NCBI GenBank assembly: GCA_017484095.1
Contig: JAFUTU010000031.1
Span: forward strand, 1 to 49,000
DNA length: 49,000 nt
Reading direction: 5' to 3'
Source of the DNA: Ruminococcus sp.
GTDB taxonomy: Bacteria; Bacillota; Clostridia; Oscillospirales; Ruminococcaceae
Under the pieces are notes generated by a model. That model was given only the letters and a program-made list of their open reading frames with translations. It was not told where the DNA came from and made no database searches. The position numbers and the translations under genes were made by a program. Of the stretch, positions 18,778 to 45,689 are shown one piece after another; positions within the stretch are counted from its first letter, which is position 1, and each line of letters starts with the position of its first letter.

Positions 18778-18897
18778 CTTTCCGGTCGCCCCCTTAAACC
18801 CCCTTCGGGTACATAACTATTTATTAGGTGCGACCACTAAGTAAAAACCAAAGCAAAAGTACGGCGTGGATCAGCCGTGCGGCGAGCACCGCTCCGT
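18778..18897. repeat. Intergenic repeat module A, copy 1
   Basis: About 115 bases nearly the same as 45575-45689. Shared blocks include CTTTCCGGTCGCCCCC, AACCCCCTTCGGGTA, TTAGGTGCGACCACTAAG, CCAAAGCAAAAGT and a final hairpin block ending GCCGTGCGGCGAGCACC. It abuts the 3' end of the 6S-like RNA. No reading frame is shared by the copies. Confidence 0.8.
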
Positions 18898-18906
18898 GTG
18901 GGAACA

Positions 18907-19157
18907 CAAAAACTGCCTTGCCGTCGCACAGATGATAAACCCGCTGTAAAGCAGGGTGGGTAAAACGTCCCAATGGTTTCTCGCTCCCAGCGTCGCTGAT
19001 AGAAGCCTGAGGCAGAACACATTTTGCTGCGCTCTCCCTCGGACCTCTAACAGCGGAGGTCTGCAATCCTGCATCGGAGTACGGATCCCTTTTGATAAGT
19101 GTTGGATTTAAAATAACCGTGCTTGATCGTACAAGGCAGTCATATTCTGTTTTTATT
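18907..19157 (-). ncRNA. ssrS: Structured RNA of about 250 nt, candidate 6S RNA
   Basis: A minus-strand transcript is bounded by a promoter at 19192-19164 and a U tract at 18911-18907. Its ends pair perfectly: ACTGCCTTG (19140-19132) with CAAGGCAGT (18920-18912), then TTTTT. Inside are the strong hairpin GACCTC/GAGGTC and, near the 3' side, a small hairpin ACCC-GCT / AGC-GGGT. One long closing stem around a mostly paired rod, and a small 3' bubble hairpin, are features of 6S RNA, which binds SigA RNA polymerase. No coding frame with a ribosome site fits. I could not run a covariance search. It is somewhat longer than typical 6S RNA. Confidence 0.55.
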
Positions 19158-19250: not shown

Positions 19251-19607
19251 TCAGGAATAGATGCCTGGATCGTTTTGCTCTTCCTCGTCATCAAAATCAA
19301 ACATTTCGTTGATACGCTCTAAAAAGATATTGCCTATCTTCTCAAATTCGTCATCATCATCTATTGAGGCGAGTATCTCCTCATTGTTCTCATCAAACTC
19401 TGACCTGAGTATCACCAGGTCGCCCGATGCGTCAAGTGCTTCGGCTGGGTCTTCAAAATACGGTGTCAGCGCATAATACTTCTCGCCTTCGTATTCCATA
19501 GCGTCTAAAAGCTCAAAGGTGTGCTTCTCGCCTGTCTCATCTTCAAGCTCATAAAGGTCGGGCGCAAACTCGTTCATCTCATCAATAGTCTTATCCATAT
19601 CGCTCAT
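19251..19607 (-). CDS. DUF1292 acidic protein
   Basis: 118 residues, very acidic, with the DUF1292 core: L-E-D-E-T-G-E-K-H-T-F-E-L-L-D-A-M-E-Y, then E-G-E-K-Y-Y-A-L-T-P-Y, and V-I-L-R-S-E near residue 75. The family is widespread in Firmicutes and uncharacterised; it is often found with the Holliday-junction resolvase-like gene ruvX, which is not adjacent here. ATG 19607 has AGGAG 8 bases upstream. The C-terminus is a Glu/Asp-rich tail. It is transcribed alone from a consensus promoter. Confidence 0.88.
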   Translation of the reverse strand: MSDMDKTIDEMNEFAPDLYELEDETGEKHTFELLDAMEYEGEKYYALTPYFEDPAEALDASGDLVILRSEFDENNEEILASIDDDDEFEKIGNIFLERINEMFDFDDEEEQNDPGIYS

Positions 19608-19626
19608 AGTATCAGCTCCTTTAAGT

Positions 19627-19675
19627 AGGTACAAAAAAACGGCACACAGGACGCTTATAAACGCCTTATGACCGC
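19627..19675 (-). promoter_or_regulatory. Terminator-like hairpin in the DUF1292 leader
   Basis: Between promoter and start codon, an imperfect minus-strand stem CGGCGG.../...TGTGCCG is followed at once by seven T and then the ribosome site. It could act as an attenuator, but the pairing is imperfect. Confidence 0.35.
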
Positions 19676-19687
19676 CGCAACACCTTT

Positions 19688-19716
19688 ATTATACTACAAT
19701 AATAATAAAATGTCAA
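19688..19716 (-). promoter_or_regulatory. DUF1292 gene promoter
   Basis: Minus strand TTGACA (19716-19711), a 17-base spacer and TATAAT (19693-19688): perfect consensus. It is divergent from the large-RNA promoter about 60 bases away. Confidence 0.85.
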
Positions 19717-19774
19717 GCATATTTTGCAAAGTTTATATTAAATAAAATATTCTGAAAAAAGTTGAAAAAAACTA

Positions 19775-19803
19775 TTGACATTTCACAAAAAGTGTGATAT
19801 AGT
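19775..19803 (+). promoter_or_regulatory. Promoter of the large noncoding RNA
   Basis: TTGACA (19775-19780), a 17-base spacer and TATAGT (19798-19803); a start near 19811 is expected. The spacer also contains a short dyad, CAC-AAAAA-GTG. Confidence 0.85.
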
Positions 19804-20281
19804 ATATACAAGGAAAAAGAAAGACCCGGATAGCTGAGGCACAGGCTTCACAAGGGCGGGGCTGAATAACGGTCGGGAGACGCAGTACAGCTTCAGCGGT
19901 GGAACTTAGGCCGGGTTCGAGGGAGGTTCTTTTCCTGATATCCACAGGCTTTTATATGGGAACGTCAATAGTCGTGAAACAGTGCAATGCATGATACCAG
20001 CTCGGCTAAACGCATATAAGGTCTAATAAGGTCAGAGAGGAGCGAGTCCAATGGATGCATCAGAGATCTTAAGGGTATCCGCAAGGCTCGGCAGATCTTT
20101 TAAGTAACAGGGATCGGGACCCGTACATACGAGACGGCAGATCCAAGCTTTTAAAAGTTATTTGAAGATGGAAGGTCTGCTCAGAGCTGACGGCGGTCAC
20201 AACAATTTGTCATTACAATAAGGATACCCACACTTTTACAATTGAATATTTTCGTAACTTCATATATAAGGAGTGATCGTT

Positions 20282-20314
20282 ATGATCCGTTCAAGAAGGT
20301 TTACGAATATCTGA
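20282..20314 (+). CDS. Possible 10-residue peptide in the large RNA
   Basis: AAGGAG (20268-20273) lies 8 bases before ATG. The frame reads M-I-R-S-R-R-F-T-N-I and stop. The other 10-residue frame in this RNA also ends in basic-F-x-N-I-stop, with different third bases. Whether it is translated is unknown. Confidence 0.3.
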   Translation: MIRSRRFTNI

Positions 20315-20548
20315 GTGTCTGGAGTGATCCCCATGTACAGTTTAGGTTTTATTACTTAGGTTTTTATATTATTTCTAGTGAGAGAGTGAGTCCGATGAGA
20401 AGTTAGTTTTCATCTGAATATATTCACATAAATTGTTGGAGCGGCGCACGGGGCGCCTAAGATGTCCTGCCTGACGGGCAGGAAAGTATTTAACTATTGA
20501 TTCTTTTCAGATCTAAATAATCATCTAACACTTAGGGAGTGGTGCGTT

Positions 20549-20581
20549 ATGAAAATGCACGCAAAGTTTCTGAACATTTAA
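20549..20581 (+). CDS. Possible 10-residue peptide in the large RNA, second copy
   Basis: AGGGAG (20534-20539) lies 9 bases before ATG. The frame reads M-K-M-H-A-K-F-L-N-I and stop. It resembles the frame at 20282-20314 in length and in its last residues; translation is unproven. Confidence 0.3.
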   Translation: MKMHAKFLNI

Positions 20582-20798
20582 GAGATGGGAGTGAGTCCGC
20601 CTAAGAGTTCAGTCAGGCCGATAAATGCGTCGGCATAGGATGATAATATTTTGAAGGGATGTTTATTCCAATGGCTTAACTAAAGTTTATCCAGAAAAAC
20701 TTATTATTTTGAAAGGAAATAGATCCGATGGGATAGTGTAGCTTTCTTTGATGTTTTCCACTGAGTTTCTCAGCGGGAGCAAAGTTTAAGTTTGTGCA

Positions 20799-20832
20799 GT
20801 GTGCGGCGTGAATCAGCCGTGCGGCGAGCACC
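20799..20832. repeat. Repeat module A core inside the large RNA
   Basis: A 33-base block matching the terminal hairpin of module A at 18870-18890 and 45660-45689 (GCGGCGTG, then ATCAGCCGTGCGGCGAGCAC). It lies exactly between two aligned units of the large RNA, after the tail of one and before the purine run of the next. Confidence 0.75.
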
Positions 20833-20972
20833 TGAGAGGAAATAGATCCAATGAAATAGCTTAAGTTTTGATGATAGTTCCCCTGTTATCTCGTGGGAAC
20901 ACTGCTTTAAGTTTGGGCATATTACGTGTGAAAGGCGTGAGTCCGAAATTTTAGTTAATACTGATAATAGAT

Positions 20973-21002
20973 AAGACCGCTCGGTGTTCGGGCGGTCTTT
21001 TT
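20973..21002 (+). terminator. Terminator of the large RNA
   Basis: AAGACCGC (20973-20980) pairs with GCGGTCTT (20992-20999), with a further CG/CG pair inside, then a run of T to 21002. Confidence 0.85.
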
Positions 21003-21243
21003 GTGCGGTGAGCACCGTGTCAGGTGTCAGGTCATTAAGTTTTTATTAGCCTTATTAGGGGGCGTTTCCGAGAGCTTGCGGTTAGTATTCAGTTCCAATA
21101 GGGTTTGTATATGTTGTGGTATGCTCCACAATTCTGATTATGACTTGTGTGGGACGGTTTTTGAGTGCGCCAATAGGCTATAGGAACATGAAAGACAATT
21201 GCTCTCGTTAATAATTACCTCATCCAACGGAATAGGCTGAGAA
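21003..21243. other. Non-coding spacer after the large RNA
   Basis: It contains a short hairpin CGGTG-AG-CACCG (21006-21017), a module-A-like fragment and a GTGTCAG doublet near 21018-21033. No gene, promoter or clear terminator for the minus-strand lipoprotein gene was seen. Confidence 0.5.
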
Positions 21244-22020
21244 TTATTCATCGCAGTTAAGGTAAAGCCCAACAAGTGCGTCGGATATAAGGGCGTGATC
21301 CTCGTCGGTCAAAGTATAATAGCTGTCTGAGAAATTGATGGTTCCCTCTATCCTGTCCTGAAGCCTTATAATATTTGTTCCGTCGGTATATTTGAACAAT
21401 GTGAGCTTAAAGCACTTTGGGTGCTTTGAAAGCTCATTATAATCATCAAAATTAACGCCCGACCATTCGGTAAAAATCGATATCCTTCTTAAACCGCCCT
21501 CTTCAGTTTCCTTTCTTCTGTCGGGCTTTTCACCGTATTCTACCGCCTCGCCCTTTTCAAAATCCCAGCCGTCATAATAAACAGGCTGATATTTTTCTTC
21601 GATATATTTCATCATATTCTCGCCGTAGTTTGCGAGAAAAACAGAATGTGTAGTGCGCTTATCTTCATTATCATCAGTAGCATGAACGATAGTATAACGC
21701 TCTTTGACAGTTCCCTCTTCAAGCAGGATCTTAGTTTCCTCAGTGTCTTCCTCTTCGGGGGTAAACCTATTGAAAGCATCTAAGTATCTCTCCTTATCTT
21801 CATCAGAGATATTTGCTACATCAAAGTTCTTCTGCGAGTCGGATGGTGTCTCTGAGGAGCTTATCTCAACGCTTGAAACATCTTCTTCCTGTGAGGAGAA
21901 AACCTCTGTGCGAGAGGTTGTTGCAACATCTTGTTTGTTACTGCTGTCATTGCTTCCGCAGGAGCATAACAGACTCAGGCAAAGCGAAATTACAGGAATT
22001 GTCTTTTTCATATCAGCCAT
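21244..22020 (-). CDS. Hypothetical lipoprotein
   Basis: 258 residues from ATG 22020, with GGGGGAG about 8 bases upstream. An N-terminal K-K, hydrophobic stretch and lipobox L-L-C-S-C (Cys21) indicate export and lipidation. A Ser/Thr/Glu-rich linker follows to about residue 65, then an acidic soluble domain without a family I recognise. It includes F-T-E-W-S-G-V-N-F-D-D-Y near residue 185. It stands alone on the minus strand between the large RNA and a small gene, and its function is unknown. Confidence 0.72.
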   Translation of the reverse strand: MADMKKTIPVISLCLSLLCSCGSNDSSNKQDVATTSRTEVFSSQEEDVSSVEISSSETPSDSQKNFDVANISDEDKERYLDAFNRFTPEEEDTEETKILLEEGTVKERYTIVHATDDNEDKRTTHSVFLANYGENMMKYIEEKYQPVYYDGWDFEKGEAVEYGEKPDRRKETEEGGLRRISIFTEWSGVNFDDYNELSKHPKCFKLTLFKYTDGTNIIRLQDRIEGTINFSDSYYTLTDEDHALISDALVGLYLNCDE

Positions 22021-45574: not shown

Positions 45575-45689
45575 CTTTCCGGTCGCCCCCCTTAAACCCC
45601 CTTCGGGTATACATCTACTAATTAGGTGCGACCACTAAGCTAAAGCCAAAGCAAAAGTGCGGCGTGAATCAGCCGTGCGGCGAGCACCG
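45575..45689. repeat. Intergenic repeat module A, copy 2
   Basis: The best match to 18778-18890, in the same orientation, including the terminal GCCGTGCGGCGAGCACC hairpin block. It lies between the ACT gene (transcribed from the right) and the UPF0210 gene. Confidence 0.8.

Follow-up and report, generated by a model that had tools for sequence, protein, structure and literature searches.

ROOL, GOLLD and OLE are large bacterial RNAs that have promoters of their own. The 6S RNA targets RNA polymerase by promoter mimicry, and sponge RNAs like CsrB and RsmZ carry many repeats of a GGA-bearing motif that resembles a ribosome-binding site. The genus Ruminococcus comprises bacteria found in rumen and gut, of which R. 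albus and R. bicirculans can be cultured.

Translation signals of comparable kinds are described in several reports. The leader of axe-txe contains two-codon minigenes, and among minigenes two-codon ORFs are reported to be the most toxic, the effect being stronger with a strong Shine-Dalgarno (SD) sequence (PMC8708949). The odc1 motif is a structured RNA with a conserved ORF of 11 residues (PMC8632094), and in Staphylococcus aureus the pairing of extended SD sites reaches past the core anti-SD in the direction of the start codon (PMC13009471). A further study lists 3161 candidate RNAs of 27-219 bp (PMC8040213), among which fragments of the RNA described here may be found.

The RNA analyzed here lies in a stretch of 49,000 nucleotides from Ruminococcus sp., which as a whole is called the window. 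It resembles ROOL, GOLLD and OLE in being large, bacterial and equipped with its own promoter, but its conserved elements are predicted translation signals and it has no match to their models. With the axe-txe minigenes it shares the order of SD, AUG, one codon and stop, whose translation yields nearly no product; axe-txe, however, has two minigenes in a leader that act in cis on the next gene, whereas the array has about ten sites in a stand-alone RNA. Motifs of the odc1 type likewise combine a structured RNA with a conserved ORF, but there it is a single uORF ahead of a gene, and the S. aureus extension concerns ordinary genes and an AU dinucleotide near the start, where the array has CC. 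The repeated GGA-bearing motif recalls CsrB and RsmZ, but in the array the motifs are followed by start and stop codons. With 6S RNA it shares the locus and, as proposed below, the strategy of imitating a site to which a core machine binds; the 6S model (RF00013) has 187 positions and the array RNA does not match it. No described class of stand-alone RNA with serial start-stop frames was found in the literature searched, which covered few subscription papers. By its sequence the array RNA fits neither a leader nor a purely noncoding RNA, and it would represent a novel type of RNA in bacteria.

The transcription unit

An earlier note, made from the letters of this DNA, had claimed a TTGACA-17-TATAGT promoter. 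It is present, with the -35 hexamer at 19775-19780, a spacer of 17 nt and the -10 hexamer at 19798-19803; 11 of 12 consensus positions are matched, TG stands ahead of the second hexamer, and it scores best among nine promoter-like sites in the stretch (shuffle mean 3.6). The same promoter, in the form TTGACA-17-TATA(G/T)T, was found in 25 of the 26 RNAs with an anchorable first motif (window counted in), the predicted start being located 176-285 nt 5′ of that motif; in this placement, L040 was wrongly anchored. For the window, transcription is predicted to start near 19811. The spacer contains the dyad TCACA-N5-TGTGA (19783-19797), and TGTG occurs in 25 of 25 promoter spacers and ACA in most of them; the dyad is possibly an operator, or merely belongs to the extended -10.

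The longest forward frame within 19811-21002 has 54 codons, in line with the upper limit of 60 given earlier. The stem and U tract noted at the end exist as an inverted repeat (arms 20973-20983 and 20989-20999, then T's), but a strict terminator scan of the window does not list them, nor does a search for perfect stems yield any in the window. A hairpin with a perfect stem and a T run was detected in 13 of the 25 RNAs with a placed start, the window included in the 25: in 12 of them it lies between +1054 and +1676, in L049 at +2047, which gives a length of about 1.05-1.7 kb for 12 of the 25 RNAs. The 5′ domain folds as it had been drawn (-41.2 kcal/mol for 19811-19943), but no better than shuffled sequences (z -1.05, 34 of 200 shuffles equally good), and an exceptionally stable 5′ domain was rejected on these grounds. 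The predicted features are collected in Table 1.

Table 1. Features predicted at the array locus, with positions in the window.
Feature	Position	Strand	Remark
Likely 6S RNA, downstream of DUF1292	18906..19145	-	RF00013, 33.8 bits
DUF1292 protein gene (PF06949), divergent neighbour, fixed locus anchor	19251..19634	-	
Promoter TTGACA-17-TATAGT, extended -10	19775..19803	+	also in relatives' RNAs
Micro-ORF array RNA (predicted transcript)	19811..21002	+	sequence comparison
5′ leader, AGGAAAAAGAA/UUCUUUUCCU closing stem	19811..19941	+	fold no better than shuffles
Shine-Dalgarno AGGAGCGAGTCCA and first ORF 20051-20107, MDASEILRVSARLGRSFK-stop	20038..20107	+	
AAGGAG site and micro-ORF 20282-20314, MIRSRRFTNI-stop	20268..20314	+	
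GGAGTGATCCCC site and micro-ORF 20333-20359, MYSLGFIT-stop	20321..20359	+	
GAGAGTGAGTCCG site (weak Shine-Dalgarno) and micro-ORF 20395-20406, AUG AGA AGU UAG	20382..20406	+	
AGGGAG site and decapeptide ORF 20549-20581, MKMHAKFLNI-stop	20534..20581	+	
AUG-less GGGAGTGAGTCC site; GUG frame 20591-20638, MSPPKSSVRPINASA-stop, start codon uncertain	20587..20638	+	
GAAGGG site and micro-ORF 20671-20679, AUG GCU UAA	20653..20679	+	
GAAAGGAAATAGATCCG site and micro-ORF 20728-20736, AUG GGA UAG	20711..20736	+	
Dispersed repeat inside array	20801..20832	+	
GAGAGGAAATAGATCCA site and micro-ORF 20851-20859, AUG AAA UAG	20834..20859	+	
AUG-less GAAAGGCGTGAGTCC site; GUG frame 20937-20954, MSPKF-stop	20930..20954	+	
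Predicted terminator: inverted repeat and U tract	20973..21002	+	

Conservation and genomic context

By DNA comparison, matches were obtained in 28 of the 61 genomes searched. Of these, 27 belong to the 29 genus genomes, counting that of the window, and some have short matches only; the one genome outside the genus has a match of 27 nt. R1, a model of one module with 63 positions, matches 26 of the 29 genus genomes and all 20 with a completeness of at least 90% and a contamination of at most 5%, while the three unmatched genomes are 70-86% complete; its match to the window itself (20271-20331) is weak. Named members include the R. albus strains 8, AR67 and KH2T6 as well as R. bicirculans 80/3 and R. 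sp. FC2018. The unit of about 1.2 kb postulated in the earlier note thus recurs among the relatives, and a single conserved transcription unit of this size with its own promoter is almost certain.

For the comparison within the genus, 26 loci from 25 genomes were used, which together with the window give 27 RNAs, some of them near-copies; two loci, L053 and L056, are truncated at the end of a contig. One genome (G002) carries two nearly identical copies of the locus, L052 and L053 on contigs C42 and C30, of which one is cut by the contig end; they represent a duplication or an assembly artefact.

In the window and in 25 of the 26 loci the array RNA adjoins a divergent DUF1292 gene, and in L056 the contig ends before its position. 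On the far side of this gene, a 6S RNA match attains the gathering score of 46.4 in 8 of the 13 related loci that were scanned; the match in the window is full-length but has a large insertion and stays below it with 33.8 bits (E 6e-5). The genes downstream of the array differ between clades. The commonest cluster (11 loci) is on the other strand, as is the first downstream ORF in 19 of the 25 loci that have one, compared to 6 of 25 on the same strand by crude ORF calling. No gene kept genus-wide was found when downstream clusters and first ORFs were compared, and a gene leader or uORF attenuator was rejected for want of a conserved same-strand gene. An RNA of a phage or mobile element was likewise rejected due to the fixed position beside DUF1292 and the absence of matches to one exact decapeptide pattern in viral contigs.

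The Rfam scan of the window returned no family for the array at gathering score. With E values up to 5, only weak, sub-threshold hits to RefA9 and Ocean-VII were obtained for 19650-21250, and none to ROOL, GOLLD, OLE or 6S; in 13 related loci only 6S reached the gathering score. ROOL, GOLLD, OLE and other Rfam families were rejected accordingly, which agrees with the earlier statement that no diagnostic sequence of the first three is visible. A CsrA sponge was also rejected: a search for CsrA (PF02599) was negative in all 29 genus genomes, and the control search was positive in 3 of 14 named genomes.

Anatomy of the array

Across the genus a first ORF of about 16-18 codons (MDASE..., MDVSE..., MGALD...) precedes three repeated elements. 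Element (a) reads RAAGG-N6-10-CCR-AUG and then runs for one or a few codons to its stop; Met-Ala-stop is the commonest product, and Met-Arg-Ser-stop, Met-Gly-stop and Met-Glu-Ile-stop occur as well. At one position, that of the site 20382-20406 in the window, ten relatives have AUG-UAA instead. Element (b) reads GGGAGUGGUGCAUUAUG... and forms a hairpin with the AUG in its loop, which opens an ORF of 10-16 residues mostly ending in Leu-Asn-Ile-stop (LNI-stop). In the window, the decapeptide AUG is located in the loop of the hairpin 20542-20548/20554-20560, and this hairpin was counted in the relatives. The third element (c), AGGAGUGAGUCC, lacks an AUG and is followed by a frame GUG-Ser-Pro-(Lys/Pro)... 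to a stop.

There are about ten predicted ribosome-binding sites per RNA, mostly 50-90 nt apart, and the decapeptide is often present in several copies. In RNAs of the R. albus type the elements are arranged in tandem modules of about 190-220 nt. Two alignments of such modules were made, A1 with 29 modules and A2 with 33 of 34 modules from 12 loci, in which one module of 190 nt (L055) was omitted. In nearly all of the 29 aligned modules the next site follows the stop of the LNI ORF by about 6 nt. The distance from site to site is at least 40 nt in 300 of 301 cases with a peak at 50-54, whereas 33% would fall below 40 after random placement, related modules being counted repeatedly and part of the spacing being imposed by the ORFs themselves. 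The parts between the sites vary among clades, and the sites recur.

Reading frames and stop codons

In the 27 RNAs, 264 SD-led ORFs of at most 20 codons were counted versus 57 in dinucleotide shuffles, 136 of at most four codons versus 17.3, and 172 with CC at -3/-2 versus 2.4, with one on the antisense strand. Since trimming at the 5′ end missed the promoter in 12 of the 27 RNAs, mostly through a start upstream of it but in L040 and L056 for different causes, the counts for the array, stops, decapeptides, pairing, AUG-less sites and spacing include some upstream sequence. CC at -3/-2 was found in 148 of 231 micro-ORFs, but in only one of the 102 protein genes with an SD at these loci. For the window alone, three micro-ORFs of at most four codons (shuffle maximum 4) and seven of at most 20 codons (maximum 6) were obtained, and the five with CC (maximum 1) are the only clear excess. 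The sequence case for an array is therefore a comparative one, in which the window alone is not decisive and several of the RNAs are near-copies.

The stop codons were analyzed without requiring anything after the AUG, and sites less than 70 nt from the trimmed end were dropped. An in-frame stop within four codons follows at 124 of 185 sites, whereas the two other frames give 19 and 44. If the first ORF of about 17 codons is left out, the numbers are 124 of 151 versus 10 and 40, and for distinct sequences, again excluding the first ORF, 103 of 123 versus 9 and 33. Sites of the AUG-GC class have UAA as their third codon in 35 cases, UAG in 20, UGA in 20 and UGG in none, another codon being present in 11 of 86; the absence of UGG among 75, with 5.3 expected from independent columns (Fisher p 8e-4), is indicative, as the rows are related. 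In total, 75 AUG-GCW-stop sites in the 27 RNAs consist of SD, start codon, one sense codon and stop, as a two-codon minigene does.

The pattern GAAAGG-N6-10-CCRATGGCWTRR matches 67 times in 21 of the 29 whole genus genomes, its reversed form not at all. All 67 matches are located at the array locus, two of them up to 70 nt past the trimmed 3′ ends, and none ends in TGG, which the pattern permits. The window's own genome has no match because its sites deviate (GAAGGG, AUG GGA UAG, AUG AAA UAG).

Among 65 decapeptide places, 56 have both anchors, all 56 in frame with spacings of 21, 24, 27, 30 and 36; three more have the ORF with an inexact 3′ anchor, and six have no AUG near the 5′ anchor. At such a place in L044, UUG or GUG was read in frame by eye. 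The 47 copies ending in LNI use CUG, UUG or UUA for Leu, AAU or AAC for Asn and AUU or AUC for Ile, and stop with UGA or UAA, not with UAG. At 65 of 79 distinct AUG-less sites, a stop is found within 12 codons of the GUG frame compared to 29 in the single control frame that is informative, since a UGA is built into the second one; these 79 sites keep the frame, yet they have no well-placed start.

Taken together, the RNA very probably contains an array of translated micro-ORFs whose frame and stops are under selection. The earlier note had named conserved codons in this span as evidence against its reading, and this applies in part, the micro-ORFs being the putative case. Its large functional RNA, new or divergent, stands as a conserved unit with covarying hairpins and no Rfam match, but not as a noncoding RNA of the ROOL/GOLLD/OLE type: conservation of structure alone in an untranslated RNA, as is typical of these, was rejected in view of the apparent selection on frame and stops.

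Other genera and families

Forty other genera of the family were searched for the DUF1292 protein, with matches in 35 genomes, and the order was searched for PF06949. In this way 31 loci from other genera (29 of the 35 matched genomes, plus two) and 27 loci from other families (27 of 52 matched genomes) were examined over 1500 nt on the RNA side. At least one micro-ORF of at most four codons with SD and CC was found on the RNA strand in 15 of the 31 other-genus loci, five of them via a single site, versus none of the 27 other-family loci. A looser test gave 35 of 62 sites in frame versus 5 and 12 (16 of 31 loci) for the other genera, 2 of 8 sites (1 of 27 loci) for the other families and 0 of 4 on the opposite strand within the family. 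In about half of the 31 other-genus loci no array is present in the 1500 nt.

The sites in other genera read, e.g., AAAAGGUGAGUCCA-AUG, and the predicted products are MY, MK, ME, MQ, MC, MR, MT, MI and M alone. The residue after Met, if there is one, is thus free to change, and therefore initiation and an early stop appear to be what is kept. A longer ORF with an acidic N-terminal part, the counterpart of the first ORF in the window, opens 11 of the 15 loci. In L098, two of four AAAGGUGA-type sites have no stop at the third codon and continue beyond it.

RNA structure and pairing with 16S rRNA

Covariation among relatives was analyzed in the 33 R. albus-type modules of alignment A2. Here three hairpins were found with 96.2% of cells paired and nine pairs with two-sided changes, in total 68 cells versus 22.9 in shuffles, a control that ignores relatedness; sliding the partners abolishes the signal. 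Further pair types amount to 16, below the 18.4 of the shuffles. According to these alignments, the hairpins between the micro-ORFs covary.

The 16S rRNA 3′ end reads GGATCACCTCCTTTCTA in two relatives (G016, G023), and a search for 16S rRNA in the window's own assembly gave no match. Both ends of this tail are complementary to the motif GAAAGG...(A/G)UCC. Predicted 16S duplexes of -9 kcal/mol or better number 556 versus 299 in shuffles, a 1.9-fold excess only, and 78 in antisense. CC takes part in the best duplex for 86 of 91 distinct motifs, where it contributes 2.7 kcal/mol (-9.20 versus -6.53 kcal/mol without CC). The G's of the SD are predicted to be less accessible (unpaired 0.26 versus 0.47 over all positions) and the AUGs more open (0.55, and 0.74 in the decapeptide hairpin). 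A small cis hairpin between GG and CC was rejected, the third pair forming in 48 of 91 motifs versus 43.6 expected and showing no covariation.

Proposed function and alternative explanations

Confidence is high for the anatomy and low to moderate for the function. The favoured explanation, at a probability of roughly 0.4, is a translated transcript that catches ribosomes and acts as a ribosome sink in trans. It would be made in quantity from its strong promoter, and a predicted ribosome-binding site every 50-90 nt would pair with the 16S 3′ tail (GAAAGG...AUCC against GGAUCACCUCCUUUCU). Each site would admit one initiating ribosome and release it immediately at a stop only one to three codons further on. 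In this way ribosomes, initiator tRNA and release factors would cycle on the RNA with no protein made. The decapeptide sites with LNI-stop may slow termination and hold ribosomes longer; at the AUG-less sites, 30S subunits may bind but fail to initiate, or the occupancy may likewise be prolonged. The net effect would be a tunable ribosome sink in trans adjoining 6S RNA. A switch in cis is unlikely because no gene is kept genus-wide downstream. The conserved peptide parts (LNI, MSPK/MSPP) speak against a plain sink: some nascent peptides therefore seem to matter, and a plain sink needs none. Further points against the sink are the limited gain in predicted 16S pairing, the low predicted accessibility of the SD G's, the AUG-less sites, the three genus genomes unmatched by R1, the other-genus loci that show no array, the two L098 sites that run past the third codon and the one other-family locus positive in the looser test. 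That the RNA is a global translation regulator, in which abundant mimics of ribosome-binding sites load a train of ribosomes and throttle protein synthesis as the ribosome's counterpart of 6S, is a doubtful extension.

One alternative is a nascent-chain sensor, in which the repeated decapeptide with LNI-stop stalls terminating ribosomes under some condition and the stalled ribosome covers the GGAGUGAGUCC site about 6 nt downstream, so that the state of translation sets the fold, stability or processing of the RNA, which then acts itself or through a fragment. The synonymous codons for LNI, the absence of UAG, the close following site in nearly all of the 29 aligned modules and the start codon in a hairpin loop agree with this. 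It is nevertheless unlikely, as it has no genus-wide downstream gene to control and does not account for AUG-Ala-stop and AUG-stop or for a second residue that is free to vary in other genera. Conservation at the peptide level, together with the frequent multiple copies of the decapeptide per transcript, would suit a production of peptides (decapeptide, first ORF, MSPK) as signals or effectors, which is quite improbable given that AUG-stop and two-residue products are hardly peptides and the second residue is free among genera.

Alternatively, the task may lie in the covarying hairpins of a structured scaffold, with the ribosomes on the micro-ORFs only shielding it or ordering its folding; PMC8708949 discusses how translation of minigenes may shield a transcript from attack by an endonuclease. 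The high paired fraction and the two-sided changes are consistent with such a scaffold, but the parts between the sites differ among clades whereas the sites recur and are the recognisable part in other genera, and the further pair types stay below the shuffles, which makes it improbable. A plain noncoding RNA of the ROOL/GOLLD/OLE kind, in which the strings of SD, AUG and stop arise by chance from a structural motif rich in purines, could explain the AUG-less GG...CC motifs and the local hairpins; it is hardly credible in view of the frame and stop tests in the genus and in other genera, the missing Rfam match and the third GG-CC pair that does not covary in cis.

If the ribosome loading is true, the array RNA would be, to our knowledge, the first natural RNA that titrates ribosomes. 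A ribosome-titrating RNA and 6S RNA would then share one locus, and a kind of gene between coding and noncoding could be missed by gene finders and RNA finders alike.

Further sequence elements at the locus

A 32-nt repeat, GTGCGGCGTGAATCAGCCGTGCGGCGAGCACC, is present in three copies in the window (18859-18890, 20801-20832 and 45657-45688), one of which is located inside the array RNA. In the genome of the window 17 matches were found, the query itself included, and further ones in near relatives. At 20217-20260 of the window, an element GGATACYC...ACAATTGAATATT recurs in most of eight RNAs compared. It has no micro-ORF assigned and resembles an LNI-coding stretch without a start.
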